Source: a virus. Taken from it: a stretch of DNA of 20,618 nt. The stretch covers positions 1 to 20,618 of IMG/VR virus record IMGVR_UViG_3300022745_000159. One strand, written 5' to 3'. This document shows positions 1 to 15,628 of the stretch, in pieces (position 1 is the stretch's first letter; each line of letters opens with the position of its first letter). The notes beneath the pieces are model-generated. The model ran no database searches. It was given only the letters and a program-made list of their open reading frames with translations, and was not told where the DNA came from. The position numbers and the translations under genes are program-made.

Positions 1-1
1 G

Positions 2-775
2 AACGTGTACGTGGTCCATGAGACACCCCCGCCGGGGTACGACGGGCCGCTGCGCATCGACGACGTGTACCGGGACGTGCGTCCGTCCGTGGCATCGTCC
101 CCCGCGGTGTTGGGCCGAACGGCTGTGGACAGGGCTGTCCCTGCCACTGATGACGCGCCCCTGACCAGCGGGAACAGAGAAACCGCAGGTCAGCCCGTAG
201 TGCGCGAAAACGCACCACGGCGTGAACTGGTCAATTGCAGTTTGACCAGTTCGGCCCGTAGTGCGCAAAAACGCACCACCATGGTGCGCAAAAACGCACA
301 TGAACTAGAAGAACCTCAACTAGAAGAAACCACCACCACCCCCGCGTGCGAGCACGCGCCGGACGCGCCCGCGGGTACGGGCGAAGCCGGTGGTGGTGGA
401 TGCCCCACGGAGCAGGGACAGGCGCTCATCCGGGAAGCGGCCACGGCCGCGGGCCAGACTCTCGCCGTGGCCGTCGTGACCGGGCTTGCCCGGAGGGTCG
501 ACGCGGCTGTGGAATCCGGCATCCCCCTGCCCGTGCTGCGGACCCACCTCACGGCCAACATCCGGGGTTCCCGGTCCGTCGCGGCCGTGCTCGGCGCCAG
601 GCTGGCCGACGGGGCGCTCCCCGCCATCCCCCCGCCCCCCACGCGCCCCGCACGGGCCCCGGAACTGGACACCCACCGGGAGACACCGGAGGAACGCGCC
701 AACCGTGTAGCGGCCAACAGGGAGGCGAGGGAGCGGGCCATGGCGGCAGTCCGGTCCCTCGGCCAGGCAGGGTGA
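2..775 (+). CDS. Probable replication or DNA-binding protein, C-terminal part (partial at left edge)
   Basis: The frame is open to the left edge, so the true start lies outside the window; about 257 codons are seen. The first visible residues (YVVHETPPPGYDGP) could be the end of a winged-helix DNA-binding domain, but I cannot confirm this without the missing N-terminus. The middle (about residues 60-115) is low-complexity and overlaps an array of DNA repeats. The last third has an alanine-rich helical stretch (about 140-200) and a charged C-terminal helix rich in Arg, Glu and Ala. The repeats inside the reading frame are conserved as DNA rather than as protein, as in phage replication initiators such as lambda O, where the origin lies within the gene. 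The initiator role is an inference from this arrangement. It could also be a transcription regulator with internal operators. Confidence 0.55.
   Translation, partial: NVYVVHETPPPGYDGPLRIDDVYRDVRPSVASSPAVLGRTAVDRAVPATDDAPLTSGNRETAGQPVVRENAPRRELVNCSLTSSARSAQKRTTMVRKNAHELEEPQLEETTTTPACEHAPDAPAGTGEAGGGGCPTEQGQALIREAATAAGQTLAVAVVTGLARRVDAAVESGIPLPVLRTHLTANIRGSRSVAAVLGARLADGALPAIPPPPTRPARAPELDTHRETPEERANRVAANREARERAMAAVRSLGQAG
200..299. repeat. Three 16-bp iteron-like repeats
   Basis: Copies lie at 200-215 (GTGCGCGAAAACGCAC), 261-276 and 284-299 (both GTGCGCAAAAACGCAC). Each is an imperfect palindrome with GTGCG/CGCAC arms around an A-rich centre. The first two copies share the preceding CCCGTA. 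Copy starts are 61 and 23 bp apart. The copies are read in two different frames of the host gene, so the DNA sequence, not the protein, is what is kept. Confidence 0.75.
225..251. repeat. 10-bp inverted repeat between iterons
   Basis: AACTGGTCAA (225-234) and TTGACCAGTT (242-251) are perfect reverse complements separated by 7 bases. The element lies between the first and second 16-bp repeats and is AT-richer than its surroundings. It may be a second protein-binding site in an origin or operator complex. Confidence 0.65.
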
Positions 776-834
776 TCGTGAAAATCTGAACCATTGCGGT
801 GGACACAGCGGCGTGGTACAGGGACCCTGGACCG

Positions 835-1050
835 GTGAACACCACATACACGGACCGTCACCGGTCCATCGCCCTCACCGACTCGACCCGCATCCCGGCA
901 GGCATGGCCTGCCCCGACTGCGAGGGAACCCACTGGGTCGAAACCCCGGACGGCCGCCCACTCCGGAAGTGCACCCACCCCCGGCTCGTCCGCCGCATCC
1001 CGTCTCAGCGGCGTCCCATCACCCCCCGCGGCCGCCGCCGGTGGCCGTAA
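835..1050 (+). CDS. Small protein with a Cys-rich zinc-type motif
   Basis: This is a 71-aa product if it starts at GTG 835; an in-frame GTG at 799 would add 12 residues. I prefer 835 because a purine-rich AGGGA lies upstream, whereas 799 has no visible ribosome-binding site. The centre contains CPDCEGTHW, then a further Cys-Thr-His about 15 residues later (KCTHPR), which gives a CxxC...CxH pattern typical of small zinc ribbons. The C-terminus is very basic (RRIPSQRRPITPRGRRRWP), fitting nucleic-acid contact. I do not recognise a named family. It lies just downstream of the putative replication gene and may be co-transcribed with it. Confidence 0.55.
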   Translation: MNTTYTDRHRSIALTDSTRIPAGMACPDCEGTHWVETPDGRPLRKCTHPRLVRRIPSQRRPITPRGRRRWP

Positions 1051-1152
1051 CCCCCCACCACGCCCCCCTCACGCGCCCACACAGGGCATGGGATGGGGGG
1101 TGCGGTGTGCCCGGGTGGGGAACCGGCGACAGGCCACCAGCGGCCACACCGA

Positions 1153-1190
1153 ACCAGGGGGAACAGTCACACCACACCGTGATACTGTGA
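1153..1190 (+). promoter_or_regulatory. Candidate promoter for the paralogue operon
   Basis: TACTGT at 1183-1188 resembles an actinobacterial -10 and shares GTG-N-TAC-N-GT with two other promoter candidates in the window. The element ACCAGGGGGAACA ends 17 bases upstream (1165). TCACA (1167-1171) and TGTGA (1186-1190) form a small inverted repeat around it. A transcript starting near 1195 would carry the GGAAAGGAC ribosome-binding site at 1204-1212 before ATG 1224. Bases 1051-1152 show no convincing gene. Confidence 0.4.
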
Positions 1191-1223
1191 TCCCAACACC
1201 GACCGGAAAGGACCCCGCACCCC

Positions 1224-1592
1224 ATGCCCACACCCGGCCACGGCGGCTACGCCCCCCGCGGCGTGCTCCCCCACGAGTTGGCCAACGCCCGCGCCGTCAT
1301 CGGGGCGCTCGACCCCACCACCGTGACGTGGCTCCACAACTGCGGACTCCCCGTCCGCAGCACACAGGCAGACCGGATGAACACCCAGATCACCACCACC
1401 GGCACCCTGACCGCCACCACCGCACTCACTGCGGCACGAGCCCTTTACCACCACCTCACGGACGTCATCCGGGACAACCCCACCGCCACCCCCGACGGCC
1501 GCCGACACATCGTTGCCGTCATCAACACGCTCGCCCAACTGGTCTGGTCCCTCACCGGCCAGAACGACCAGGAACAGGACATCCCCGCATGA
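1224..1592 (+). CDS. Hypothetical protein, first gene of the paralogue operon
   Basis: The product is 122 aa, starting at ATG 1224 behind a clear GGAAAGGAC ribosome-binding site. It has a helical N-terminus (HELANARAVIGAL), a Thr-rich centre (ITTTGTLTATTALTA) and a C-terminal helix (HIVAVINTLAQLVWSL). No membrane segment, signal peptide or known catalytic motif is seen, and I do not recognise the family. Its stop overlaps the start of the next gene in ATGA, so it is translationally coupled to the tandem family downstream. Top-strand C bias (ACC, GCC and CTC codons) matches its neighbours. Confidence 0.7.
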   Translation: MPTPGHGGYAPRGVLPHELANARAVIGALDPTTVTWLHNCGLPVRSTQADRMNTQITTTGTLTATTALTAARALYHHLTDVIRDNPTATPDGRRHIVAVINTLAQLVWSLTGQNDQEQDIPA

Positions 1593-1912
1593 ACAACCAC
1601 CCCACCACCAGGGTCCGCAAGGCCCTTGACACCACCACAGCCCCTGGGGCGCGGTACGGCGACACCCCCCTCACCGACGGCGTGGTCGCCATCAGCACCA
1701 GCCGCGACCAGACCACCACCACCATCATCACCACCGCCGCCGACGTGGTCGTCACCACCGCGGGCGGCAACCCCGCCCGCTGCGCGCGGGACGCCGACTG
1801 GTGGGCAAACCACATCGCCACCACCGTCAAGGCACTCCCCCGCGCCCGCACCGTCACCACCACCCACCGGGGCCGCATCGCCAGCGTCACCATCACTTGG
1901 GGTGCCCGGTGA
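1589..1912 (+). CDS. Tandem-family protein A (hypothetical)
   Basis: The product is 107 aa, starting at ATG 1589, which overlaps the preceding stop in ATGA. Its N-terminus (HPTTRVRKALDTTTAPG) closely matches family member C at 2190 (HPTARVRYALDTTAAPG), and the corresponding DNA is also nearly the same. Further shared positions are a TSRDQTTTTI strand (compare TTRDRTRTVVTI in B and TARDWSRTTITV in C), a central tryptophan (WWANHI), and a final beta-strand ASVTITW. The predicted fold is two beta-hairpins around a helix, by eye. There are no catalytic or membrane motifs. I do not recognise the family; it probably arose by local gene duplication. Confidence 0.7.
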   Translation: MNNHPTTRVRKALDTTTAPGARYGDTPLTDGVVAISTSRDQTTTTIITTAADVVVTTAGGNPARCARDADWWANHIATTVKALPRARTVTTTHRGRIASVTITWGAR

Positions 1913-2193
1913 ACCCCACCACCGCCGTCCGGCAGGCTCTCGCCGCCGCCGGACTCCACCACCCCGTCCAGGTCATCCGCACCACCAGGGACCGCACCCG
2001 CACCGTCGTCACCATCGGGTCCGGCACCGTGGTCGGGCCGCACACCACACTCGTGTGCGGTCCCGCCCACTGGGCAGCCCTCATCACCCCCATCCTCGCG
2101 GCCATGGACGGTGCCACCGCCGTCACCCACACCCCGTTCGCCCCCCTCGCCGCCCCCCGGATCCGGCTCACCATCACGTGGAGGGACCGGTGA
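1909..2193 (+). CDS. Tandem-family protein B (hypothetical)
   Basis: The product is 94 aa, starting at GTG 1909 in a GTGA overlap with gene A. It keeps the family plan: an N-terminal helix NPTTAVRQALAAAG, a strand VQVIRTTRDRTRTVVTIG, a helix HWAALITPILAAMDG, and a terminal strand IRLTITWRD. It is the shortest member, lacking the alanine/proline-rich linker of A and C. No cysteines suggest metal binding, and no membrane segment is seen. The function is unknown; tight overlap with its neighbours implies coordinated expression, possibly as parts of one hetero-oligomer. Confidence 0.68.
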   Translation: MNPTTAVRQALAAAGLHHPVQVIRTTRDRTRTVVTIGSGTVVGPHTTLVCGPAHWAALITPILAAMDGATAVTHTPFAPLAAPRIRLTITWRDR

Positions 2194-2522
2194 CCAACCA
2201 CCACCCCACCGCCAGGGTCCGGTACGCACTCGACACCACCGCAGCCCCCGGAACCGACGACTACCCCATCGTCGCGGTCACGGACATCCGCACCGCCCGG
2301 GACTGGTCGCGGACCACCATCACCGTCGGGGCGGCCGCCCGCGCCATCCCCACCGGCCGCGTCCTTGTGTTCAACCCCGGATGGTGGGGAGAACGCGTGG
2401 CGACCGTGTGCCATGGGGTCGAAGGGGTCGACCGGGTCGACATGATCGTCACGTCCGGTGGGGTCGCCACGGTGACCGTCTGGTGGGACCGGCCATGGCC
2501 GCGAGGATGGAGGTCCCGGTGA
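2190..2522 (+). CDS. Tandem-family protein C (hypothetical)
   Basis: The product is 110 aa, starting at GTG 2190 in a GTGA overlap with gene B. The first 20 residues are close to those of protein A. The body shows AVTDIRTARDWSRTTITV, a glycine-tryptophan segment (NPGWWGERVA) and the family-ending strand GVATVTVWW, then a short extra basic tail (PWPRGWRSR). The first part of the gene is C-rich on the top strand like its neighbours, but from about 2390 the base usage turns G-rich and continues so into gene D. This suggests a recombination junction inside the gene. No function is recognised. Confidence 0.68.
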   Translation: MTNHHPTARVRYALDTTAAPGTDDYPIVAVTDIRTARDWSRTTITVGAAARAIPTGRVLVFNPGWWGERVATVCHGVEGVDRVDMIVTSGGVATVTVWWDRPWPRGWRSR

Positions 2523-2854
2523 CCAGTTACCCGGAGGGCATCGACCCGGACCGGTGGCTCCGGCTGGCCGGTGCGGCCCACCGGGCGGGGTTGTCCCGGA
2601 CCCGGTTCCGGTTCCTCGCCCACCTGGACCGCCCCGCGGGTGGTGGTGTCACGACCCTGTCCGTGCCTTCCGGTCGTCCCCCCGTGGTGCGTGGCCCGGT
2701 CCGGGCGCCCGCGTACCCGTCCGCGGTCGGGGGCCCGTTGGCGACGTTCCTGGGCGCGGTCACCGCGTTCCCGGACGTGGTCAGCGCACTGTTCCTCGGC
2801 GGGGGGATCGTCCAGGTGGAATGGGCCCCTGACCAGGGGGAACACACCCCCTAG
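2519..2854 (+). CDS. Tandem-family protein D, divergent (hypothetical)
   Basis: The product is 111 aa, starting at GTG 2519 in a GTGA overlap with gene C. It is a weaker member of the family. The order of elements is the same: an N-terminal helix DRWLRLAGAAHRAG, strand FRFLAHLD, strand TTLSVP, helix GGPLATFLGAVTAF, then a last strand IVQVEW that fits VTITW, LTITW and VTVWW of A-C. It lacks the shared TTRVR-AL opening. Base usage is G-rich, unlike the C-rich genes on both sides. The last codons contain the repeat ACCAGGGGGAACA (2832-2844), also found before gene 1224. Homology with A-C is an inference from the pattern. Confidence 0.6.
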   Translation: MTSYPEGIDPDRWLRLAGAAHRAGLSRTRFRFLAHLDRPAGGGVTTLSVPSGRPPVVRGPVRAPAYPSAVGGPLATFLGAVTAFPDVVSALFLGGGIVQVEWAPDQGEHTP

Positions 2855-2865
2855 GCACACCTGTT

Positions 2866-2887
2866 CCACGTGTGGTACAGTAGTGCC
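2866..2887 (+). promoter_or_regulatory. Promoter candidate of the 2955 operon (shared motif)
   Basis: The -10 candidate is TACAGT (2876-2881). The 22-base block reads CCACGT, two variable bases, then GGTAYAGTRGTGCC; it matches the minus-strand block at 6437-6458 at 18 of 22 positions. No good -35 is visible at 17 bp. GGAACA (2839-2844) and TGTTCC (2862-2867) form a 6-bp inverted repeat just upstream that could bind a regulator. The transcript would start near 2888. Confidence 0.5.
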
Positions 2888-2898
2888 ACAACAACAGA

Positions 2899-2933
2899 TG
2901 GTCCCCCCCCGGAACCCCCCCCGGGGGGGACCA
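2899..2933 (+). promoter_or_regulatory. Leader hairpin before the 2955 gene
   Basis: TGGTCCCCCCC (2899-2909) pairs perfectly with GGGGGGGACCA (2923-2933) around a 13-base C-rich loop. It lies between the promoter candidate and the ribosome-binding site AGAAAGGA (2938-2945). Its position in the 5' leader suggests control of translation, mRNA stability or attenuation. No T-tract follows. Confidence 0.55.
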
Positions 2934-2954
2934 CGCCAGAAAGGACACACCACC

Positions 2955-4151
2955 ATGACCAACCTCACCACCACCAACCGCCAGATCGGCAACGCTCTCC
3001 GCAAGACCGCCCCCGGAACCACCGTCCGCACCGCGGGCAGCAACACCCTCCCCACCGGCGGCGTCACATTCACCTACCTGATCCGCACCGACGCCGACGC
3101 CGACCAGATCGACGCCGTGATCGAATCCCTGGAACTCCGGGTCACCGAGATCATCAACCGCCCCACCGGCGCCACCATCACCGTGTTCACCGGCACCGAC
3201 TTCGAGTGGCAGGCGTACCTGGACGCCACCACCGCCGTGGACACCGACGACCACGTCGACAACGACATCATCACCACTTACAAGACGTTCCCCCACCAGT
3301 GGGTCAACCTCGCCGACCTCCGCGCCGCGCTCCACCACCCCCACCACGTCGTCACCGCCGCGCTGATCAGGCTCGCCGACAACAGCCGCATCCACCTCGC
3401 CCCCTGGGCCGCACAGTCCACCCTCACCGAGTCCGACCACGCCGCCGCCGTCACGTACGGGACCCGCCCCCAGCACATGATGGCCATGGACCAGGAAGAG
3501 CCGCTGACCCCGGCCACCACCACGGACACCGCCACGGCCGACCTGGACACCATCGACGATGACATCCACGGCACCGGCGCCCCCCACGCCGATTACGGGT
3601 ACTGCGACTGCCCGGACTGCGTGGACGACGACTACGACGAGGACGCCGACCCCGACATGGACTACGACATGACGGACCTGATCGAAGAGTCCGAGCGGTG
3701 CGACAACCGGGTCGGAGCCGACCCGTTTGACGACGACCACCAGTGCATCCTTGACCGGGGCCACGACGGGCCGTGCACCGACACCCTCACCACCGCCATC
3801 GCCGACGGTATCGCCGCTATCGGCATCGCCGTGCGCAACGCCCGGCTGGTCGCCCTGCTCGACTACCTCACCCGCCAGTTCCACACGGTCTACGGTCTCC
3901 GGGCACCCGGAGACAACCGGGCCATCGTGGACGCCACCCTCACCACCATCCACCGAATGATCACCATGGTCGGCGGAATGATCGACCGCCACGACTACAC
4001 CGAGACCGACGAATACCTCCACAACATGGTCGACCGGCTCACCACCCACCAGACCACTGCCGGTCAGTACCACACCCCCGCGGCCCGCACCTTCGCCGAC
4101 GCCCTCCACCAGATCATGGTGGAGATCGAGGGCCACATCATCACCCGCTGA
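2955..4151 (+). CDS. Acidic 398-aa protein with a family-like N-terminus and Cys/His motif
   Basis: It starts at ATG 2955, 9 bases after AGAAAGGA. Residues 1-80 resemble the small tandem family upstream: a helix NRQIGNALRKTAPG, a strand FTYLIRTDAD and a terminal strand GATITVF. Residues about 85-180 are mixed alpha/beta. Residues about 195-275 are extremely acidic and include YCDCPDC, then CDNRV...HQC...GHDGPC, a Cys/His arrangement of possible zinc-binding type that recurs in the protein at 5079. The last 120 residues look helical (LVALLDYLTRQFHTVYG, TLTTIHRMITMVGGMI). There is no signal peptide. The acidity could suit DNA mimicry, but that is speculation; no named family is recognised. It heads the operon that runs to 5778. 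Confidence 0.7.
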   Translation: MTNLTTTNRQIGNALRKTAPGTTVRTAGSNTLPTGGVTFTYLIRTDADADQIDAVIESLELRVTEIINRPTGATITVFTGTDFEWQAYLDATTAVDTDDHVDNDIITTYKTFPHQWVNLADLRAALHHPHHVVTAALIRLADNSRIHLAPWAAQSTLTESDHAAAVTYGTRPQHMMAMDQEEPLTPATTTDTATADLDTIDDDIHGTGAPHADYGYCDCPDCVDDDYDEDADPDMDYDMTDLIEESERCDNRVGADPFDDDHQCILDRGHDGPCTDTLTTAIADGIAAIGIAVRNARLVALLDYLTRQFHTVYGLRAPGDNRAIVDATLTTIHRMITMVGGMIDRHDYTETDEYLHNMVDRLTTHQTTAGQYHTPAARTFADALHQIMVEIEGHIITR

Positions 4152-4170
4152 CCACCACCACCACCCCCAC

Positions 4171-4197
4171 CCCCACCCGGGGGTGGGGTACCCCCAC
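4171..4197 (+). other. C/G-rich stem-loop between genes
   Basis: CCCCAC (4171-4176) can pair with GTGGGG (4183-4188), and the same GTGGGG could instead be engaged by downstream CCCCAC (4192-4197), though that second loop is tight. The element lies between the 2955 gene and the 4213 gene and may modulate read-through. There is no T-tract, so I do not call it a terminator. Confidence 0.3.
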
Positions 4198-4212
4198 AAC
4201 CGGAGCCCGAAC

Positions 4213-4731
4213 ATGCTGACCCCCCGAACCAACCGCCACCACGCCATCGCCGCGTCCGCGATCACCGCGGCCGCCGACGCCATCCACGACCACACGAGTT
4301 CCCCCACGATCGCCCACTTGTTCGACCCCGACACCATCGCCCCCATCCACCCCGGCGACCCGGTCGACGACGAGATCGACAACCTCTCTGCCCTGTACCT
4401 CATCGACAACTGGTACGGGCAGGCCATGGAGTACGCCGGTCGGTACGGCCACGACCCCCGCCTCACCCTCGCCCTGGTCGGAATGATCAGGGAGTCCCTC
4501 ACCACCCACGACCACCCGTTCACCGACCCCCACGGCGACAGCAGCATCAGGGCCGCCATCACCGAGACCGGGATCGACCCCACCGCCACCTACCACCCCG
4601 GCGGCGAGAACACCCACAGCGACACCTACACCGACGGCGCCAACACCATCCCCGCAGCCATCATCCGCACCGCCGCAGGACTCATCCGGCACCTCAACGA
4701 CACCACCCCCCAGAAAGGAATCGAACCGTGA
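4213..4731 (+). CDS. Hypothetical 172-aa protein
   Basis: I choose ATG 4213, which follows CGGAGCCC; an in-frame GTG at 4183 lies within the hairpin and lacks a ribosome-binding site. The protein has an N-terminal helix (HHAIAASAITAAADAIHDH), an acidic stretch around GDPVDDEIDNL, a helical core (LYLIDNWYGQAMEYAGRYG, LTLALVGMIRESL), and a hydrophilic His/Thr/Asp-rich C-terminal half ending in helix AAIIRTAAGLIRHLND. It has no cysteines, membrane segment or recognised catalytic motif. It shares codon bias with the 2955 gene and ends in a GTGA overlap with the next micro-protein, so it belongs to the same operon. Function unknown. Confidence 0.68.
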   Translation: MLTPRTNRHHAIAASAITAAADAIHDHTSSPTIAHLFDPDTIAPIHPGDPVDDEIDNLSALYLIDNWYGQAMEYAGRYGHDPRLTLALVGMIRESLTTHDHPFTDPHGDSSIRAAITETGIDPTATYHPGGENTHSDTYTDGANTIPAAIIRTAAGLIRHLNDTTPQKGIEP

Positions 4732-4835
4732 CCGCCGCAACCCTCACCCTCGCCATCCTCGCGGCGAGCGTCCTCATGCCCATGTTCATCGGCCTACTCG
4801 CACCCTGGCGCGAGTGGGAAAGGACCCGGAAGTGA
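4728..4835 (+). CDS. 35-aa membrane micro-protein
   Basis: It starts at GTG 4728, overlapping the previous stop in GTGA, with AGAAAGGA at 4712-4719 as the ribosome-binding site. It has one hydrophobic segment (about residues 3-25, TLAILAASVLMPMFIGLLAP) followed by a short charged tail (WREWERTRK). The positive-inside pattern predicts an outside N-terminus and a cytoplasmic tail. It is one of four such proteins in this operon. A membrane-disrupting or holin-accessory role, or membrane anchoring of a partner, is possible but not shown. Confidence 0.62.
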   Translation: MTAATLTLAILAASVLMPMFIGLLAPWREWERTRK

Positions 4836-4930
4836 ACCTGCTACTACAGGCCGCGTGCTTCGCGCTCGGTGTCGCCCTCTACCAACTCGCCAAGTTGCTG
4901 TTGCTCGCCTACCTCCGGGACCACCAGTGA
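4832..4930 (+). CDS. 32-aa membrane micro-protein
   Basis: It starts at GTG 4832 in a GTGA overlap with the previous gene, with GGAAAGGACC about 15-20 bases upstream. Nearly the whole chain is hydrophobic (residues 3-28, LLLQAACFALGVALYQLAKL and LLLAYL), broken by one Gln-Leu-Ala-Lys turn, and ends RDHQ. A single membrane helix is predicted. The tight coupling on both sides and the unbiased match of start and stop to the gene chain argue that it is real despite its size. No homologous family is recognised. Confidence 0.58.
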   Translation: MNLLLQAACFALGVALYQLAKLLLLAYLRDHQ

Positions 4931-5079
4931 CCATCCTCATCACCGCACTCCTGTGGGTCGCGGCCGCCGCCGAGCTCCTACTCGCCGGGCTCATCGCCGG
5001 GACCCTCATCGCCCTGCTGCGATGGGTCACCCTCGCCCTCATCGCCTCCCTGCGACCCCGGAAGGGAACACAGCAGTAA
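4927..5079 (+). CDS. 50-aa membrane protein, two predicted helices
   Basis: It starts at GTG 4927 in a GTGA overlap with the previous gene. The hydrophobic region runs from residue 3 to 42 (ILITALLWVAAAAELLLAG, then LIALLRWVTLALIASL), long enough for a helical hairpin. It is followed by a basic tail RPRKGTQQ. Two short helices with a basic C-terminus resemble small phage holins in general form, but no lysin gene is visible nearby, so that role is unsupported. Its TAA stop overlaps the next ATG (TAATG). Confidence 0.6.
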   Translation: MTILITALLWVAAAAELLLAGLIAGTLIALLRWVTLALIASLRPRKGTQQ

Positions 5080-5474
5080 TGACACCCGAAGACCTGGAAC
5101 AGGTCCTACAGAACATCGTGGACGCCCACACCGCGTCCTACGCCAACACCCCCTGGCCCGACGGAACCACCCCGGGCACCGACGACATCACCACCGCGAT
5201 CGCCGCAGAACACATCCGGTACGCCGTCCAAGACGCACACCGCGCCACACTCGACTACATCCTCACCAGGATCACCGGCCCCGGACCCACAGCCCTACCC
5301 GACACCACCGAACCCGGAGACGACTACGACGTCCCCCCCACCAACGAACAGTGCGGCACCACCGTCCGCGTCGGAACCGCACACATCCGATGCCGACGCC
5401 TCGCCGACCACACCCCACCCCACTGCGGCCACAGAGCAGACACACCCGGGCGACTGTTGTGGTACGACCGATGA
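5079..5474 (+). CDS. 131-aa protein with C-terminal Cys/His motif
   Basis: It starts at ATG 5079, overlapping the preceding TAA, with GGAAGGGAA at 5060-5068 as the ribosome-binding site. Residues 1-70 look helical (EDLEQVLQNIVDAHT, HIRYAVQDAHRATLDYIL). After an acidic linker, the C-terminal part has C-G-T-T-V, then HIRCRRLADHTPPHCGH: a C-x12-C-x6-H-x3-H-C-x-H arrangement. The same layout (C...HQC...GHDGPC) occurs in the 398-aa protein at 2955. Such short Cys/His blocks are common in actinophage proteins and probably bind zinc. The function is unknown. Confidence 0.66.
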   Translation: MTPEDLEQVLQNIVDAHTASYANTPWPDGTTPGTDDITTAIAAEHIRYAVQDAHRATLDYILTRITGPGPTALPDTTEPGDDYDVPPTNEQCGTTVRVGTAHIRCRRLADHTPPHCGHRADTPGRLLWYDR

Positions 5475-5653
5475 CCCCCGACACCGCCCCCTGCCCCGTC
5501 TGCGGCCGCACCATCCAACTCCGCAAGGACGGCCGCATCGGGTGGCACGCAGGGGAACGCGCCACCCCCAACCCCGGTGGCACCCCCCGCGGCAACCGCC
5601 ACGGCAACTGCCCCGGCTGGGGGCGCTACCCCCGCATAGAGGACCCCCGATGA
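5471..5653 (+). CDS. 60-aa zinc-ribbon-like protein
   Basis: It starts at ATG 5471 in an ATGA overlap. An N-terminal CPVCGRTIQLRKDGRIGWH block is followed by NCPGWGRYP, giving CxxC...H...C, a likely single zinc site. CPVCGR followed by a basic hairpin and WH is a common form of small zinc ribbon. The protein is strongly basic overall, which fits nucleic-acid or protein docking. It is sandwiched between a Cys/His protein and a membrane micro-protein in the same operon. Confidence 0.65.
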   Translation: MTPDTAPCPVCGRTIQLRKDGRIGWHAGERATPNPGGTPRGNRHGNCPGWGRYPRIEDPR

Positions 5654-5778
5654 ACCTGGCCACTGCCTACATCATCACCGCGCTCGCGTGGGCCCTACTC
5701 GTCATCTCCGCCGTCGCCCTCACCACCGCACTCATCCACGCACTCATCACCCTCGCCCGGCGGATCACCCGCCGGTAG
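5650..5778 (+). CDS. 42-aa membrane micro-protein, last gene of operon
   Basis: It starts at ATG 5650 in an ATGA overlap with the preceding gene. One long hydrophobic stretch (residues about 5-36: AYIITALAWALLVISAVALT and more) ends in the basic tail RRITRR, so the C-terminus should be cytoplasmic. It is the fourth membrane micro-protein of the operon, whose transcript ends at the strong stem just after its stop. Confidence 0.62.
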   Translation: MNLATAYIITALAWALLVISAVALTTALIHALITLARRITRR

Positions 5779-5780
5779 AC

Positions 5781-5824
5781 ACCACAGTGCCCCCCACCGC
5801 CGAAACGATGGGGGGCACTGTGGT
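5781..5824. terminator. Perfect 16-bp stem between convergent operons
   Basis: ACCACAGTGCCCCCCA (5781-5796) and TGGGGGGCACTGTGGT (5809-5824) are exact reverse complements around a 12-base loop. It lies 3 bases after the rightward operon ends and 31 bases beyond the end of the leftward one, so it can serve both strands. There is no T-tract, which is usual for high-GC actinobacterial terminators. Confidence 0.85.
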
Positions 5825-5855
5825 GCGGTCTGTCCCTGGCAGGACCGACCCGACC

Positions 5856-6014
5856 CTACCGGGACTTCGACGTCAGGTACTCGGTAGACAGGATCGCGTA
5901 ACAGTCCATGCACTGGACCTCACGCTTCGTAGTCTTGACCTTGCCGTCGTCCGACACCACCGTGTCGACGATCGTCGGGACATGGATATGGGGGCCGCCC
6001 CCATCACTGGACAC
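5856..6014 (-). CDS. 52-aa protein with CxxC motif, third gene of leftward island
   Basis: I read this ORF directly on the reverse strand. The start is GTG at 6014 with GGGGG just upstream; an in-frame GTG at 6023 would add 3 residues. The sequence runs through PHIHVPTIVDTVVSDDGKV to KREVQCMDCYAILSTEYL and ends at TAG 5856-5858. A CMDC pair follows a beta-rich stretch, like half of a zinc ribbon, so it may dimerise around a metal. It lies 19 bases after the preceding leftward gene and ends before the shared terminator. Function unknown. Confidence 0.6.
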   Translation of the reverse strand: MSSDGGGPHIHVPTIVDTVVSDDGKVKTTKREVQCMDCYAILSTEYLTSKSR

Positions 6015-6033
6015 GACCCCCACACCTACCCGG

Positions 6034-6201
6034 TCACACCCCCGACGAAGACGGCGGGGGGATCGGCCGACCGTTCACCGCGGTCACCGAGATCGTCTGA
6101 CCGCAGTTCGCGCAAGCCACCCTGGTCTGAATGATCATGTGGGTGACCCCGGTCAGTTCCGTAACCTCCCGCGGCCCTGGAACGTGCTGCTTGCAACCCA
6201 T
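6034..6201 (-). CDS. 55-aa protein with Cys/His pairs, second gene of leftward island
   Basis: It starts at ATG 6201 (MGCKQHV), preceded on the reverse strand by a strong purine ribosome-binding site GGAAGGGGAAG, one base after the stop of the upstream gene, so the two are coupled. It has GCKQH near the N-terminus and CANCGQTI in the middle, giving a C..H....CxxC set that could hold one zinc. The tail PPPSSSGV is disordered. Like its downstream neighbour it carries one CxxC, and the two may work together. No family is recognised. Confidence 0.62.
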   Translation of the reverse strand: MGCKQHVPGPREVTELTGVTHMIIQTRVACANCGQTISVTAVNGRPIPPPSSSGV

Positions 6202-6202
6202 C

Positions 6203-6436
6203 TCACTTCCCCTTCCTGCGATGCTTCCCGCCCTCGCTGGATTCATCCCTCTCCGCCCGGGTGAACCCCCGCACAGACACTTCCTCTGCCTCCCTCGCCG
6301 CGTCCCTCGCGGCCTGTCGTCGGTGCGCGTCGGAGATGTGTACCCGCTCCCCGCGGGTGTAGGTGGGGAAGCCGTCGTGGTCGGTCTCGCCGGTCGGGAT
6401 CCGCCGGTAGATGGCGGGGTGGTCGTTCTCGGTCAT
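6203..6436 (-). CDS. 77-aa charged protein, first gene of leftward island
   Basis: It starts at ATG 6436 (MTENDHPAIYRR), six bases after the -10 candidate TATAGT, so the mRNA is probably leaderless. An upstream GTG-type extension to 6490 would run through the promoter and is rejected. The N-terminal half has short strands (AIYRRIPTG, FPTYTRGERV). The C-terminal half is a long charged helix (HRRQAARDAAREAEEV) and a basic tail (GGKHRRKGK). It could bind nucleic acid, but there is no recognisable HTH. It heads the only leftward transcription unit in the window, a position often held by regulatory or lysogeny genes. Confidence 0.62.
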   Translation of the reverse strand: MTENDHPAIYRRIPTGETDHDGFPTYTRGERVHISDAHRRQAARDAAREAEEVSVRGFTRAERDESSEGGKHRRKGK

Positions 6437-6458
6437 GGCACCACTATACCGGACGTGG
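6437..6458 (-). promoter_or_regulatory. Promoter of the leftward island (shared motif, leaderless)
   Basis: On the reverse strand the -10 candidate TATAGT is followed by GGTGCC and then the ATG of the 77-aa gene. The block reads CCACGT-CC-GGTATAGTGGTGCC and matches the block at 2866-2887 at 18 of 22 positions. The initiating base would be at or next to the A of the start codon. No clear -35 is present. Confidence 0.6.
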
Positions 6459-6480
6459 CGCACCCGTACCGCGTCCGGTA
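6447..6480. promoter_or_regulatory. 9-bp inverted repeat overlapping the leftward promoter
   Basis: TACCGGACG (6447-6455) and CGTCCGGTA (6472-6480) are perfect reverse complements, 25 bp apart centre to centre. The left arm overlaps the -10 of the leftward promoter. A dimeric regulator bound here would block leftward transcription and lies about 75 bp upstream of the small terminase gene. Confidence 0.6.
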
Positions 6481-6543
6481 GGGGGAACACACACAGTCAC
6501 CAACCGTCACCATTCGGATCGCGTAAACCCACTGACCGGCCCG

Positions 6544-6555
6544 TATCATCGACAC
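6544..6555 (+). promoter_or_regulatory. Possible leaderless promoter for the small terminase gene
   Basis: TATCAT (6544-6549) is followed by six bases and then ATG 6556, the same spacing as at the other leaderless candidates. No ribosome-binding site precedes the ATG, which supports leaderless translation. No good -35 is seen. The stretch 6481-6543 also holds AGGGGGAACA (6480-6489) and a 10-bp-spaced GTCACCA repeat (6496-6502, 6506-6512), and is a natural place for a packaging site. Confidence 0.4.
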
Positions 6556-7233
6556 ATGGCACCCCGTACCCCCGATAACCTGACCCCCCGACCCACCTGC
6601 CACGCCCACAGCAAGACCACCGGGAAGCTCTGCGGCCGACCCGCCGTCCCCGGCGGCAAGGTCTGCCGGTGGCACGGCGGAGCCGCCCCACAAGTAGCGA
6701 GGAAGGCCGCGATGGTGCGGACCATCGAACAGATCAGGGAGAACGGCGGGAAGGTCAACGACCCCGCCGCGCAGATGCTCGAAATCATGACTGCGTCCGA
6801 CACCATGTGGCGCCTCTACTCGTCACTCCTGGACAAGACGTGGCAGGCAGCCCAGACCGGGGCCGACCCACAAACCCCCATCGAACTGGACGATGACCAG
6901 TACATGGCCGTGGCCGCGGGACTCGCCGGGATGGGGGTCCGGGCGTTCGTCACCCCCACCAGGGCCGCGGGCAAGGCCCCCGGTGAGGTGATCATCACCG
7001 GGGAACAGGTCAGCGCGCTCGCCGACCTGGAAATGAAAGCCCGTGACGTCGCCATGCAACACGCTCGGATCGCGTTCGCCGCGGGACTCGCCGACCGGGA
7101 ACTGAAACTCGCCGAGCGCTTGGTCGACCGGGTGTTGGGTGCCGTGAACGCCGCCCTGGACGCGGCAGAAACCACCCCCGAAGCACACGCCGCAGGAAGA
7201 CTCGCGGCCGCCGACTACCTACAGACCGCGTAA
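6556..7233 (+). CDS. Terminase small subunit (probable)
   Basis: The product is 225 aa and lies upstream of the large terminase. Residues 15-40 form a zinc-type motif (C15, C26, C37, H40) continuing into HGGAAPQV, a signature frequent in actinophage proteins next to the large terminase. The remainder is mostly helical (MLEIMTASDTMWRLYSSLLD, LADLEMKARDVAMQHARIAF, LKLAERLVDRVLGAVNAALD), consistent with an oligomeric DNA-recognition subunit. Small terminases bind the packaging site and present DNA to the motor. Assignment rests on position plus the motif. ATG 6556 is used because a -10-like TATCAT lies six bases upstream. Confidence 0.72.
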   Translation: MAPRTPDNLTPRPTCHAHSKTTGKLCGRPAVPGGKVCRWHGGAAPQVARKAAMVRTIEQIRENGGKVNDPAAQMLEIMTASDTMWRLYSSLLDKTWQAAQTGADPQTPIELDDDQYMAVAAGLAGMGVRAFVTPTRAAGKAPGEVIITGEQVSALADLEMKARDVAMQHARIAFAAGLADRELKLAERLVDRVLGAVNAALDAAETTPEAHAAGRLAAADYLQTA

Positions 7234-7253
7234 TCCCCACCACCACACACCCG

Positions 7254-7271
7254 TGTCCTACAGTGCAGGTC
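7254..7271 (+). promoter_or_regulatory. Leaderless promoter candidate of the HTH gene
   Basis: GTGTCC then TACAGT (7259-7264), seven bases, then ATG 7272. GTGT-N2-TACAGT is shared exactly with the promoter candidate at 2866-2887. There is no ribosome-binding site before the ATG. It would start transcription inside the packaging cluster. Confidence 0.5.
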
Positions 7272-7577
7272 ATGGGACCTACCACCCACCACGCGATTAC
7301 CACCCGACTCGGGGCGCCACCACCAGCACTGTGGCGCCCCCTACGCAAGGCATCCGGGCTCACCCTCGCCGACGTCGCCGGACGCGTCGGTGTCGCCCTC
7401 CAAACCGTGCACCGCTGGGAGATCGGCGCCAGCCACCCCACCGGACCCGCCGGAACCACCTACGCCGGGTTCATGCGGGAACTCGCCGACCTAGCCGACC
7501 AGGAAGGGGTCACCGTGACCACCCACGGCACACACCCCGATGGCACCTGCACATGGTGCGGCCGGGAAGCATCCTGA
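7272..7577 (+). CDS. Xre/Cro-type helix-turn-helix protein
   Basis: The product is 101 aa. Residues about 20-52 carry a typical HTH_3 motif: LRKASGLTLADVAGRVGV then ALQTVHRWEIG, with the usual L-T-L-ADVA first helix and T-V-HRWE recognition helix. Such proteins bind operator DNA, often as dimers. The tail includes CTWCGREAS, a CxxC pair that might bind metal. The start at ATG 7272 is chosen because a -10 lies seven bases before it; a GTG at 7263 would lie within that -10. The gene sits between small and large terminase genes, an unusual site for a regulator. It may control the late operon or the 6447-6480 inverted repeat. Confidence 0.8.
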   Translation: MGPTTHHAITTRLGAPPPALWRPLRKASGLTLADVAGRVGVALQTVHRWEIGASHPTGPAGTTYAGFMRELADLADQEGVTVTTHGTHPDGTCTWCGREAS

Positions 7578-7581
7578 CACC

Positions 7582-8952
7582 ATGACCACCGCCAGCCCCG
7601 ACCCCCTACGCATAGCCGCCGACCGGCTCCGGGCATCCGTCACCGACGACCCCATCGCCAAGGGCCGCCGGGGCTGGTGGTGCGACAACCCCGACTGCGA
7701 CGGACAACCACACGACACCTACACCACCAACCACGCCAGGGCCGCACAACGCACCCCCGTCGGGGACTGGTACACGTGGCTCATCCTCGCCGGACGTGGG
7801 TTCGGGAAGACCCGCACCGGCGCGGAAGACATGGCCCGCTACATGATCGACAACCAGGGGGTGCGGTGCGCCATCGTCGCCCCCCGCTACGCCGACGGCC
7901 GCGACACCTGCGTAGAGGGCGAGTCCGGGATCCTCGCCGTACTCGACCGGTACGGCCACACCGACCAGAACGGGCGCCGCTGGAACCGGTCACTCGGCGA
8001 ACTCATCCTCACCAACGGTAGCCGCGCCAAACTGTTCTCCGCCGAAGCACCCGACGCGCTACGCGGCCCCCAACACCACCGGGTGTGGGTAGACGAACTC
8101 GCACAAGTGTTGAAACGGAACCCCGACACATGGTCACAGGTGATGTTCGGGCTCCGACTCGGCCGCGACCCCCGCGCCATCGTCACCACCACACCCCTGC
8201 CCCTGCAAGGCATCCGGGAGTTGCTCACCGACGACCACTGTGTCGTCACCCGCGGATCCACCTACGACAACGCGGGCAACCTCGCCGCACCCGCGCTCGC
8301 GAAACTCCGATCCCAGTACGAGGGCACCCGGCTAGGCCGTCAGGAACTGGACGGGGCCCTCATGGACGACGTCCCCGGTGCACTGTGGGCCAGGGCGTGG
8401 TTGGACCGGGACAGGGTGTGGCGGCCACCCACCCTGGACCGGGTCGTGGTCGCTGTCGACCCCGCGGTCACCAGTGGTGAGGACAGTGACGAGACCGGGA
8501 TCGTGGTCGCCGGGGTCGGACCCATCATCGACGGACACCGGCCCGTGTGGGTGCTGCGGGACGCGTCCCTACGCGCCACCCCCGACGCGTGGGCACGCCG
8601 GGTCGACGACATGTACCGGGAGTACGACGCGGCCGAAGTGGTCATCGAAACCAACCAGGGCGGTGACGCCTTGATCGCACTGCTACGGACCGTGAACCCC
8701 AACCTCCCGATCACCAAGGTCATCGCGAAAAAGGGGAAACGGGTCCGCGCGGAGCCGGTCTCCGCCCTGTATGAGCAGGGCAAGGTCCACCACGTCGGGA
8801 AACTGGACACCCTAGAGGATCAACTGTGCACGTGGACACCCGACGACCCGAAGAGCCCGGACAGGCTAGATGCGCTTGTGTACGCTGTGTTACAACTAAC
8901 GGGTGGTGGGCGTGCGTCCGCGTTTTTCACCGCCCTCCGGAAGGGAGCGTGA
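7582..8952 (+). CDS. terL: Terminase large subunit
   Basis: The product is 456 aa, the normal size for the ATPase-nuclease that pumps DNA into the prohead through the portal and cuts concatemers. The Walker A motif is AGRGFGKT (residues 70-77), Walker B is VWVDE (D171, E172), and the C-terminal RNase H-like nuclease shows VAVDPAV (D293), VIETNQGGD (E356, D362) and RLDALVYA (D430). An N-terminal Cys/His set (C34, C39, H44, H51) precedes the ATPase. The start is ATG 7582 after GGGAAG; an in-frame start at 7540 overlaps the HTH gene further and has no ribosome-binding site. The portal gene follows after 6 bases. Confidence 0.95.
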   Translation: MTTASPDPLRIAADRLRASVTDDPIAKGRRGWWCDNPDCDGQPHDTYTTNHARAAQRTPVGDWYTWLILAGRGFGKTRTGAEDMARYMIDNQGVRCAIVAPRYADGRDTCVEGESGILAVLDRYGHTDQNGRRWNRSLGELILTNGSRAKLFSAEAPDALRGPQHHRVWVDELAQVLKRNPDTWSQVMFGLRLGRDPRAIVTTTPLPLQGIRELLTDDHCVVTRGSTYDNAGNLAAPALAKLRSQYEGTRLGRQELDGALMDDVPGALWARAWLDRDRVWRPPTLDRVVVAVDPAVTSGEDSDETGIVVAGVGPIIDGHRPVWVLRDASLRATPDAWARRVDDMYREYDAAEVVIETNQGGDALIALLRTVNPNLPITKVIAKKGKRVRAEPVSALYEQGKVHHVGKLDTLEDQLCTWTPDDPKSPDRLDALVYAVLQLTGGGRASAFFTALRKGA

Positions 8953-8958
8953 CCCGAC

Positions 8959-10809
8959 GTGGCACGTCGAACCGTCGGAATCCGCCGTCCGACCCCACGC
9001 CCCCGACGGGGCCTCACCGCGAAAGCCACCCTCCCCGGGGTCGGGGCACTACCGTCCGGCACCGGGCTGGTCGACGTTCAACCCGCGATGAACGCGATGC
9101 GGCAGGCCACCAGGGGGCAGGCCACCACCAACAGCCCAGGGCTGATCGACACCGAACCCCTACCCCGACACCCCGCCGCGTTCGTCGCCGCGTTCGGCCC
9201 CGGCGTGCCCCTGGTACCACAGGCACTACAGCCGTCACCCACCCCCGGTGGGCAGGCCGAACCCCGCCGGTGGGAATACCCCATCACGTGGAACCTTTCG
9301 ACCGCGTCCGGTCGACCGGTCCCGTGGGCGACACTCAGGGACACCGCCACGATCGACCTAGTCCGGCGGTGTATCGAGAAACGGAAGAGTGAGCACGTCG
9401 GGCAGCCGTGGGACTTCACTCTCACCCCGCGGGCCATGGAGTCCGCCGGTGCGGACACCCCCGCCGAACAGCGGGCCATGCGGGAACAGTACGCCGACCA
9501 CATCAGCCGTCTCACCGAATGGTGGGGCACCCCCGACAAGACGAATGACCTCCCGTTCGACCAGTGGCTGTCGAACGCTTTAGAGGAGTTGCTTGTCCTT
9601 GACGCTCTGGCGATTTTCCCGCGGGTCACGTACGGGGGACAGTTGGCGTCCCTGGAAATCGTGGACGGCGCCACGATCAAACCCCTACTGGACGTCCGCG
9701 GGAACCGACCCACCCCACCGGATCCCGCGTACCAGCAGTGGCTGTACGGGTTCCCGCGGGGGGAGTACACCCGGGGAAGTGAGGAAGCGGGGTGGGAGGG
9801 GCAGGCCGGTGACCTGATCTACACGGCCCGCACGGTCCGGTCGACCAGCCCGTACGGGTACAGCCCAGTGGAGCAGTCCTTGCAGTCCGCGTCCCTGTGG
9901 ATCCACCGTCAGCAGTGGATGTCGAGTGAGTACACGGACGGGACACTGCCCACGTCGTTCCTCACGGTCGATGACACCGCCGCGTCCATGACCCCCGAAC
10001 AGCTCCGGGCATGGGAGGTGTCCCTCAACGACTACTACGAGGGGTCGAACGGGAACCGGCACCGGCTCCGACTGCTCCCCGGTGGTGTGGCCCCGGTGTC
10101 CACGTCAGATGTGGCGGAACGGTACAGCCCGGACTACGACTACTTCCTGGTCAAACTGGTCTGTTCCCACTTCGACGTGGACCCCACCGAGATTGGGTTC
10201 GCCCCGTCCGGTGGGTTGGGTGGGAAGGGTTTCAGTGCGGGGCAGCAGGACACGAAGTGGCGGAGTGCGATCGAACCGTGGAACCGGTTCCTGTCGTCCC
10301 TGATCAACCGGATCAGTGCCCAGTATCTGGGGATGCCCCCGGAGCTCACGCACGCGTTCCTCGGGGCGGAGTCCGAGGATGAGAAGTCCGCGGACGACAT
10401 CGGTGCTGCCCGCGTGAATTCCGGCCGGGCCACACTGAACGAGGACCGGGACAGGGCTGGTATGCCCCGGTACGACGGGGAGTGGGCGGACACCCCGATG
10501 GTGATGACCGGGTCGGGTCCGGTGTGGATTCCGGGTGCGTGGGATGACGCGATGGCGCCCCCTGCGCCGGTGCCCGCGGCCCTGGTCGCGGCGCAGGGGG
10601 GTGTGCCCCCGTCTCCCGACGCGGCACCCCGCCCGGAGAGCGCTTCCCCGCCGGGATCGGACGGCCCCGACTACACGGTGAAGACCGACAGGGGTGATGC
10701 CCGGGGGCGAGCGGCAGGCCCGAGTCGAACGGGCCCTGCTGAACCACGACAGGGTCGTCACCCCGGCGCGGGCACGTATCGGCCGGGGTTTACGTGGGAC
10801 CGTGCGTGA
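8959..10809 (+). CDS. Portal protein
   Basis: The product is 616 aa and starts at GTG 8959 behind GGGAG. Portal proteins form the dodecameric channel at the capsid vertex. Typical features are IDLVRRCIEKRKSEHVGQPW, a LEIVDGATIKPL-type strand segment, GDLIYTARTVRSTSPYGYSP, VEQSLQSASLWIHRQQW, and the late region FDVDPTEIGF followed by glycine-rich GGLGGKGFSAGQQ, as in SPP1/HK97-type portals. The first 110 residues are a proline-rich extension and the last 100 are proline/alanine-rich and disordered. The final 37-38 residues are encoded within the start of the MuF-like gene in another frame, and look like unselected tail. Confidence 0.93.
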   Translation: MARRTVGIRRPTPRPRRGLTAKATLPGVGALPSGTGLVDVQPAMNAMRQATRGQATTNSPGLIDTEPLPRHPAAFVAAFGPGVPLVPQALQPSPTPGGQAEPRRWEYPITWNLSTASGRPVPWATLRDTATIDLVRRCIEKRKSEHVGQPWDFTLTPRAMESAGADTPAEQRAMREQYADHISRLTEWWGTPDKTNDLPFDQWLSNALEELLVLDALAIFPRVTYGGQLASLEIVDGATIKPLLDVRGNRPTPPDPAYQQWLYGFPRGEYTRGSEEAGWEGQAGDLIYTARTVRSTSPYGYSPVEQSLQSASLWIHRQQWMSSEYTDGTLPTSFLTVDDTAASMTPEQLRAWEVSLNDYYEGSNGNRHRLRLLPGGVAPVSTSDVAERYSPDYDYFLVKLVCSHFDVDPTEIGFAPSGGLGGKGFSAGQQDTKWRSAIEPWNRFLSSLINRISAQYLGMPPELTHAFLGAESEDEKSADDIGAARVNSGRATLNEDRDRAGMPRYDGEWADTPMVMTGSGPVWIPGAWDDAMAPPAPVPAALVAAQGGVPPSPDAAPRPESASPPGSDGPDYTVKTDRGDARGRAAGPSRTGPAEPRQGRHPGAGTYRPGFTWDRA

Positions 10810-11521
10810 CGTGACCAGTCTCGCTACGGCCCTGGTCCAGGCCGCACGGGACGGCCACGGCACCCCACACGAACTGCGGGCACTGGTGGGGCGGGGGTTG
10901 GTCCGCAACGCGGGGGTCGACGCGTTGCGGACCCTGTACCGGGCCGCGTGGGAGCAGGGAGCCAAGACAGCACGGGACGCGGTCCGCGCCGTCCGGCCGA
11001 CGGTGAAGGCGGACACCTCACCACCCCCACCGCCGGGTGTCCCACCGCCCGCGGCTGCCCCGGTCCCGATGGTGGATGTGGTGGCGTTCCTTGCGTCGGC
11101 TGATCAGGTGTGGGACGGCATCGCGGATCATGTCGGTGACCAGATCGCGGATGTGGTCGTGTCCCTACTGGCCAGTAACGGCAACGAAGGGGTGAGCGTG
11201 GCGGAGGTCGAGTCCGCGATCCGGGACGTGACCGGCGCACCCCACGCCGACATGATCGCCCAGACCGAGACGACCAGGGCCCTCACCGCCGCCGCGTACG
11301 ACCAGTACCACACGTTGGGTGTCCGGCGGGTTGAGTTCCTCGCCACCGACGACCCGAAGGTGTGCCCGCGGTGCGCGGCGAACGAGGACCAGGGTCCGGT
11401 GGATATCGGGGCGGAGTTCGTGAACGGCGCCCCGCCGGTCCACCCCCGCTGCCGGTGCGCGGTCGAACCCGCGTTCAGCGACGATGACATGATCACCGAT
11501 CTTGGGGACACCAGTGGATGA
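10697..11521 (+). CDS. MuF-like minor head protein
   Basis: The product is 274 aa from ATG 10697; a GTG directly before it (10694) is also possible, and GACAGGG lies immediately upstream. The C-terminal domain is the Mu F/SPP1 gp7 type: IAQTETTRALTAAAYDQY, then FLATDDPKVCPRCAANEDQ, and the closing PPVHPRCRCAVEP. These proteins sit inside the head near the portal and help assembly or ejection. The N-terminal helical part (VRDVTSLATALVQAARDG) precedes a proline-rich linker (PPPPPGVPPPAAAPVP). The gene overlaps the portal gene by 113 bases and ends inside the next gene's start region. Confidence 0.9.
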   Translation: MPGGERQARVERALLNHDRVVTPARARIGRGLRGTVRDVTSLATALVQAARDGHGTPHELRALVGRGLVRNAGVDALRTLYRAAWEQGAKTARDAVRAVRPTVKADTSPPPPPGVPPPAAAPVPMVDVVAFLASADQVWDGIADHVGDQIADVVVSLLASNGNEGVSVAEVESAIRDVTGAPHADMIAQTETTRALTAAAYDQYHTLGVRRVEFLATDDPKVCPRCAANEDQGPVDIGAEFVNGAPPVHPRCRCAVEPAFSDDDMITDLGDTSG

Positions 11522-13898: not shown

Positions 13899-15628
13899 CG
13901 CTGACAGCGTCCCCGGAGAACATGTTCTCCGACGTGAAGGGCAACCCGGTTGCTCTGAGTGAGCGTTTCGACGCTTTCAAGTCCGCTCTCGCGTCCGCCC
14001 CATGGGGGCAGGTCGGGAACGACGGCCAGACCACGGCGGGAAACCTGGACGTTCACCCCCTCGGTGACGGACAGGGCAACAACGGTCTCGGGAACTTCGT
14101 TGTTTCCAAGAGCGTCGCGGCCAACCCCGCTGACAAGCTCCGGGAACTCGCGAACAACCCCCTGATCAGCAAGGCGATCGGGGATGAACTCCGGTCGTCT
14201 CTGGTGGATCGTCTGGACGGGGTGGTGGAGAAGGACCTGTCCCTCACCAACCCGCTCTCCACCGGACTGGTGCTGTTCGATCTGAAGGCCCCGTCGGAGT
14301 TCCTGGTGCCGGTGGAGACTCCGATCCGGAACCGGACCCCCCGCACTCAGGGTGTGGGCACCAGTTACCGGTTCAAGCAGATCACCGGTATCTCGGGTGC
14401 GCAGACCACTGCGGGTGTGTCCCCGGTGTTCCCCGGGTTCACGGACACCACCGAACTGGACATCACCACGACCGGGTCGGCCACCCCGACGTACCTGAAC
14501 CGGCCCCCGATGATCAGCTACGCGGGTGTCGACAAGCAGGTCAGTTACATGCAGTTCGGCCTGTCGGACAAGGTCCCGTGGTCGGCTGAGTTCGCGGGTC
14601 AGGGGTTCCAGGATCTTCGGTCCCTGTCCCAGACGAGTGTCTTGTACGCGTCCATGCTCTCTGAGGAGCGGGTCATGCTGTACGGGCGTGGCACGTCTGG
14701 GAACGGTTTCTCCGGGACGATCACCACCCCGACGGGTGTGATGGGTGCGGCCCGGTCCGCGAACGCTGGTGAGACCGGGATCAGCGGTTCGGCGACTCTG
14801 ACGGTGTGGCTGGTCGCGGACACCGGTTTCGGGACCGCGCCCGCGGTCCAGGCCGGTACCGGTGTGGCGGTGACCGCCGGGCAGGTTCTCCCGGTGACCG
14901 TCCCCGCAACCGCTGGTGCGTACACGTACCGGGTGTTCGTGTCCACTAACGGGTCCCCGACGACCGCGAATGCGTTCTACTACGGCAACGTGGGTGCGTC
15001 GTTTGTTTTGCAGGGCACCATGCCGACTTCCGGGACCGCGGCGTCCGCTTTCTCCGCGAACTCGTCCGCCCTGTCGGGGTCGTACGACGGGATCATTCCG
15101 ATCGTGACCGGCACCAACTCCGGTTACGTCAGGAACCTGAACACGACCCTGTCGGTGACCAACCCCGGCAACGAGTTCAACACGGCGTTCGCCGCGATGT
15201 ACGCCCAGAACCTCGCCAACCCCGACGAAATCCTCATGAACGGATTGGACAGGAAACAGCTGTCCGATACGTTGAAGAACGCCGGGAACGTCAACGGTTA
15301 CAAGCTGGAAATCGCGGCTGACGGCCTGTCCGGTCATCAGGTGGGTACCGTGGTGTCGGGTATCCAGAACGAAGTCACTGGCAAGCTGGTGGACATCACC
15401 GTCCACCCGTACCTCGCGCAGGGTACCGCCCCGATCCTGTCCCACACGCTACCCTTCCCGAACAGCAACGTCACCAGCTGCTGGGAGGCCAGGAACGTTC
15501 AGGACTACGTGGGGATCAACTGGCCGGTCATCGCCACCACCTACGACACTTCGTCGTACTGGTTCGGGACTTTCTTCTGTCACGCCCCGGCGTGGCAGGG
15601 TGCGATCACCGGGATCGTCGCGGCCTAA
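13895..15628 (+). CDS. Major capsid protein, HK97 fold with inserted domain
   Basis: The product is 577 aa, beginning at ATG 13895 in an ATGA overlap with the protease gene. It is longer than typical HK97-type capsid proteins (about 300-450). The N-terminal 110 residues are a putative delta or scaffold-like region; then come SLTNPLSTGLVLFDL, PVETPIRNRTPR and TSYRFKQITG (N-arm and E-loop type), and a spine-helix region with LSEERVMLYGRGT. Residues about 295-382 read as an inserted Ig/FN3-like beta domain (SATLTVWLVADTG, GAYTYRVFVSTNG). The HK97 core resumes with MYAQNLANPDEILMNGLDRK. Codons are G/T-rich compared with the early genes. The strong hairpin after the stop fits a highly expressed gene. 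Confidence 0.93.
   Translation: MTLTASPENMFSDVKGNPVALSERFDAFKSALASAPWGQVGNDGQTTAGNLDVHPLGDGQGNNGLGNFVVSKSVAANPADKLRELANNPLISKAIGDELRSSLVDRLDGVVEKDLSLTNPLSTGLVLFDLKAPSEFLVPVETPIRNRTPRTQGVGTSYRFKQITGISGAQTTAGVSPVFPGFTDTTELDITTTGSATPTYLNRPPMISYAGVDKQVSYMQFGLSDKVPWSAEFAGQGFQDLRSLSQTSVLYASMLSEERVMLYGRGTSGNGFSGTITTPTGVMGAARSANAGETGISGSATLTVWLVADTGFGTAPAVQAGTGVAVTAGQVLPVTVPATAGAYTYRVFVSTNGSPTTANAFYYGNVGASFVLQGTMPTSGTAASAFSANSSALSGSYDGIIPIVTGTNSGYVRNLNTTLSVTNPGNEFNTAFAAMYAQNLANPDEILMNGLDRKQLSDTLKNAGNVNGYKLEIAADGLSGHQVGTVVSGIQNEVTGKLVDITVHPYLAQGTAPILSHTLPFPNSNVTSCWEARNVQDYVGINWPVIATTYDTSSYWFGTFFCHAPAWQGAITGIVAA

Follow-up and report, generated by a model that had tools for sequence, protein, structure and literature searches.

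By sequence comparison, three consecutive small genes of an uncultured phage (A, B and C) are homologous and constitute one family, which is an orphan in the collections that we searched. The window we analyzed is the entire IMG/VR record IMGVR_UViG_3300022745_000159, a phage genome fragment of 20,618 bases with a GC content of 0.68. The sequence-only reading had described a tandem array of four paralogue-like ORFs of 94-111 aa at 1589-2854; the four ORFs are present, with B, C and D starting inside GTGA overlaps, and the family relationship holds for the first three of them. The expansion of A-C is real yet fairly ordinary, as is tandem duplication of small accessory genes in general. On a small scale it clearly illustrates how this process gives rise to genes in the accessory part of an uncultured phage genome, here for a family whose relatives were not found.

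The four genes are part of an overlapping run of five on the + strand that begins with a gene of 122 aa and no family (1224-1592), preceded by AAAGGA ahead of its ATG. It is followed by gene A (1589-1912, 107 aa), gene B (1909-2193, 94 aa), gene C (2190-2522, 110 aa), which carries the extra C-terminal tail RPWPRGWRSR, and gene D (2519-2854, 111 aa), the last of the run. The first gene overlaps A by ATGA, and the A/B, B/C and C/D junctions each overlap by GTGA. GGAGG-type signals precede the GTG of C (GGAGGG) and of D (GGAGG), and weaker ones are found at A and B. Composition by codon position supports coding for all five genes, including D, whose GC content at the three positions (0.76/0.60/0.88) is coding-like. 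The five genes are presumably read from one transcript as an operon. A promoter scan detected none, a result that is uninformative where the host is high-GC, and a search of Rfam over 1-7600 gave no match.

The run lies between the first gene of the window (5-775, 256 aa) and the terminase large subunit (7540-8952). The other recognized genes are the portal (8959-10809), a Mu F-like head protein (10694-11521), a protease-like protein (11502-13898), a protein in the capsid position (13895-15628) and tail genes from 17617, where a tail-tube-like gene is located. We found no tRNA genes in the 20,618 bases. Uncultured phages elsewhere carry relatives of the portal and capsid proteins with 46-63% identity; in the locus with the closest portal (L098, 61%), the same slot is filled by quite different small genes, many of which are likewise joined through 4-nt overlaps. 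Since the genes of L098 overlap in the same way, the 4-nt overlaps are the style of this group and do not point to a complex.

Several other features of the left part of the window were observed. The ORF at 5-775 contains repeated palindromes of the type GTGCGCRAAAACGCAC at 186-300, as well as a 33-nt direct repeat (186-218 and 247-279, 91%); the palindromes look like iterons or operator sites, and the ORF looks replication-like. The 83-aa protein encoded at 799-1050 has a weak match to an Anti-TRAP zinc-binding region (E 0.0002, below the cut-off). A GC-rich hairpin (TGGTCCCCCCCCGG / CCCGGGGGGGACCA) lies at 2899-2933, after D and before the gene at 2955, and has no run of T on the + strand. 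The latter gene (2955-4151) encodes a protein of 398 aa that is very acidic, at a net charge of about -41, and has cysteine pairs close to its middle; our searches, including a pattern scan of IMG/VR, gave no relatives of it. A second hairpin (CACCACAGTGCCCCCC / GGGGGGCACTGTGGTG) at 5780-5825, between the small genes of the + strand and the short genes of the - strand at 5856-6490, is a possible two-way terminator.

Evidence that A, B and C belong together came from several comparisons. Pairwise blastp gave 3e-13 for A and C and 3e-6 for B and C. The local alignments of the proteins gave z scores of 16.8 (A-C), 8.8 (B-C) and 6.7 (A-B) against 1000 composition-preserving shuffles, with none of the 1000 reaching the observed scores, and A was also recovered by the A-C profile. 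The DNA codon-shuffle test agreed, with z of 13.5 for A and C and of 5.3 and 4.1 for the remaining two pairs. The likeness of A-C is not an effect of composition, since the control set of T-rich neighbors (1224-1592, residues 1-95 of 2955-4151, and 4213-4731) reached z of at most 2.2. The first gene of the run showed no sequence relation to A-D (shuffle z at most 0.7). The N-terminal part of the gene at 2955-4151 was also considered as a relative of A-C and rejected; it is alike by eye only, with z from -0.4 to 2.2. No direct repeat in the window is stronger than a match of 56 nt between the 5’ ends of A (1592-1647) and C (2196-2251), both on the + strand. This repeat bears out the earlier claim that A and C still share DNA at their 5’ ends, although ‘near-identical’ was somewhat strong for 84% identity. 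Other tandem small paralogues occur among the fetched loci but are few; we counted 25 pairs of candidate frames, which makes arrays of this type uncommon rather than unique.

Conservation along the A-C alignment is uneven. Columns 1-22, which contain the motif PT..VR.AL, are 60-71% identical in all three pairs, columns 23-60 (I.T.RD) are 33-38% identical, columns 61-90, covering the second helix, are 21-25% identical and the last part is 26-43% identical. The three proteins are basic (+6, +6 and +3) and rich in threonine (14-22%). A conserved N-terminal portion with a diverged second helix would fit the suggestion, made in the sequence-only reading, of either a multi-subunit complex or a diversifying interaction with the host. 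Such a pattern might be expected if the copies bind a common partner, or one another, through the conserved surface and vary the surface that meets the target.

We did not recover relatives of A-D from Pfam, PHROGs, NCBIfam, PADLOC (which covers defence systems) or PDB sequences, and the earlier statement that no family is recognized was upheld in these and the other collections searched. Pattern scans of IMG/VR with A, B, the A-C alignment and D gave no relatives; distant relatives could escape these scans because short near-exact peptides are required. Searches with tblastn of annotated phages (A, B, C and D as queries) and of plasmids (C as query) gave nothing or matches at chance level. 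No relatives of A-D were found by hmmsearch without filters in the fetched loci, which include the structural relatives of this phage; one isolated match of B in another locus (L152, E 0.007) was taken as chance. The A-C profile was also run against actinobacterial genomes in two draws of 396 and 395, a sample that may be off target. Across these approximately 790 genomes there were seven matches with E up to 0.01 per genome, roughly what chance would give, and the three that were aligned were weak and inside larger frames. The absence of relatives of A-C fits what is expected of accessory genes that turn over fast.

The claim of a fourth paralogue, and with it the part of the proposed local duplication and divergence that involved D, did not hold. 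Comparison of D with A-C gave z from -0.5 to 1.1 in protein shuffles and from -1.6 to 0 at the DNA level, and profile-profile comparison with hhalign gave a probability of about 0.2%. The composition of D is also unlike that of A-C (Thr 6%, Gly 14%, Pro 12%), and its single-chain model was unusable (pLDDT 40). On the strength of its sequence, D is probably unrelated to A-C, or so distant that a relationship is no longer recognizable.

An inverted repeat links B to the C-terminal tail of C; at a score of 27, against 22 for the runner-up, it is the strongest in the window. One arm of 33 nt lies in B (2086-2118, + strand) and encodes TPILAAMDGAT in the region of the second helix; the other, at the end of C (2482-2514, + strand), encodes the extra tail of C and covers the Shine-Dalgarno sequence of D. 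The arms are 91% complementary with an exact core of 18 nt, and codon shuffling of C, repeated 300 times, never gave a repeat as strong. Because the repeat encodes a tail that is absent from A and B, the tail of C probably arose through an inverted copying event from B. In the mRNA the arms are predicted to form an unusual, long stem of 30 pairs with a duplex energy of -63.8 kcal/mol. It is present in both the minimum-energy fold and the ensemble for 1909-2560 and, when its extension is included, spans the Shine-Dalgarno sequence of D together with its GTG. Ribosomes traversing B and C would open the predicted stem, which would make the translation of D conditional on that of C, a dependence already suggested by the overlap of the two genes. 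If the stem works, it would be a simple way for the last gene of a run to depend on the translation of earlier ones.

We modeled B with AlphaFold2 using an alignment of A and C only (pLDDT 85.8, pTM 0.75). This confident model consists of a helix (3-13), four strands (20-25, 31-36, 39-42 and 47-50), a second helix (52-64) and two further strands (69-77 and 84-91), in agreement with the earlier description of a helix, strands, an aromatic helix and a final strand. A, B and C are each probably a single small alpha/beta domain. Foldseek returned nothing significant with this model (best 0.053 in the PDB and 0.011 among viral models). With VIA-align, whose own note states that Z near 8 is often reached by unrelated models, the first-ranked group contained 2gjv_A (Z 8.4, 86 aligned, rmsd 2.8), followed by 9m6x_M (8.4), 9mu3_D (8.1), lambda gpU 3fzb_C (7.7) and T5 p142 8bcp_B (6.6). 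We take 2gjv to share the SCOP fold of gpU. Tail-terminator or neck proteins hold the top three places among the solved chains and many of those that come after, with a monocin protein among them, and cover 83-92 of the 94 residues; ferredoxin-like domains of EpsL, EpsM and PilO score almost as high. We regard the tail-terminator likeness of the predicted structure as a lead and not as membership of that fold.

We tentatively propose, at a little under even chances, that A-C are an orphan family of basic accessory proteins that arose by two local duplications and have an early, host-facing role with a diverging target surface. The two duplications would yield A, B and C, with A and C as the closest pair. 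The predicted first helix (PT..VR.AL) and the strand after it (I.T.RD) are kept while the second helix has diverged, and the copies would share a scaffold or a pairing surface and vary the surface directed at the target. The putative role would be in takeover or counter-defence early in infection, and the three proteins may pair with each other. The location, a variable slot between the palindrome-bearing first gene and the terminase, is the context for an accessory reading; none of the neighbors of A-C has a recognized host-takeover function. The copy number was counted within the 20.6-kb fragment. If the copies do face the host, A-C would mark a surface under diversification. An alternative that we consider rather unlikely is that A-C, with or without D, are subunits of a single hetero-oligomer in which translational coupling sets the stoichiometry and whose function is not host-facing. 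The overlapping starts and the shared scaffold are consistent with it, and the conserved N-terminal helix could serve as a common interface; on the other hand, unrelated genes across this group also overlap by 4 nt, and the basic charge would also suit nucleic-acid binding.

The structural lead raises the possibility that A-C are virion or assembly proteins derived from a tail-terminator-like domain, acting as a mixed ring or as assembly helpers. The first rank of tail-terminator and neck chains against the model of B (Z up to 8.4, in a range common among unrelated models) points in that direction, as does the description of T5 p142 as a beta-sheet flanked by two helices with a hairpin (PMC11784142). 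The lack of a significant Foldseek match and the nearly equal scores of the EpsM, EpsL and PilO domains weaken the structural argument, and the genomic position speaks against it: A-C (1589-2522) lie outside the head-tail module, roughly 11 kb before the capsid gene, and not between the head-connector and tail-tube genes (the capsid gene starts at 13895 and the tail-tube-like gene at 17617). The expected terminator position is occupied by the gene at 16837-17349, whose role is deduced from its position, and hhalign of the family of this gene with the three-row A-C profile, a weak probe, gave a probability of 0.1-0.2%. We therefore judge a virion role improbable. It is similarly improbable that A-C are redundant copies from a recent neutral duplication, devoid of distinct functions and heading for loss. 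No relatives were found and divergence is strong beyond the 5’ end, as such a history would allow, but all three frames are intact, and start signals and predicted elements have been kept despite 21-43% identity over most of the length. A combined scenario seems very doubtful to us, in which a tail-terminator-like fold was repurposed as three mutually pairing proteins acting on the host and the stem closes the ribosome-binding site of D unless B and C are translated.

Among known systems, the tail terminators (lambda gpU, T5 p142 and STM4215, 2gjv) have an order of helices and strands that resembles nearly the whole model of B (Z 6.6-8.4, on the scale discussed above), whereas A-C are shorter, occupy a different genomic position and lack a significant Foldseek or sequence-profile match to them. 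Small ferredoxin-like domains in the periplasmic proteins EpsM, EpsL, PulM and PilO of type II secretion systems and type IV pili share a helix-strand-strand-helix-strand-strand layout with the model (Z 6-7.8), whereas A-C have no sequence relation to them and no membrane segment; the likeness is probably a common arrangement only. In the literature on tandem phage paralogues, the sole useful case we found was the dmd-tifA region of phage T4, in which the small counter-defence gene tifA was amplified in tandem (PMC9391042). By description, tifA and A-C are alike in being small phage genes of an accessory region that were amplified in tandem. The copies of tifA are fresh, identical segments of a gene that acts in counter-defence, whereas those of A-C are old and diverged, and their role is putative (PMC9391042).
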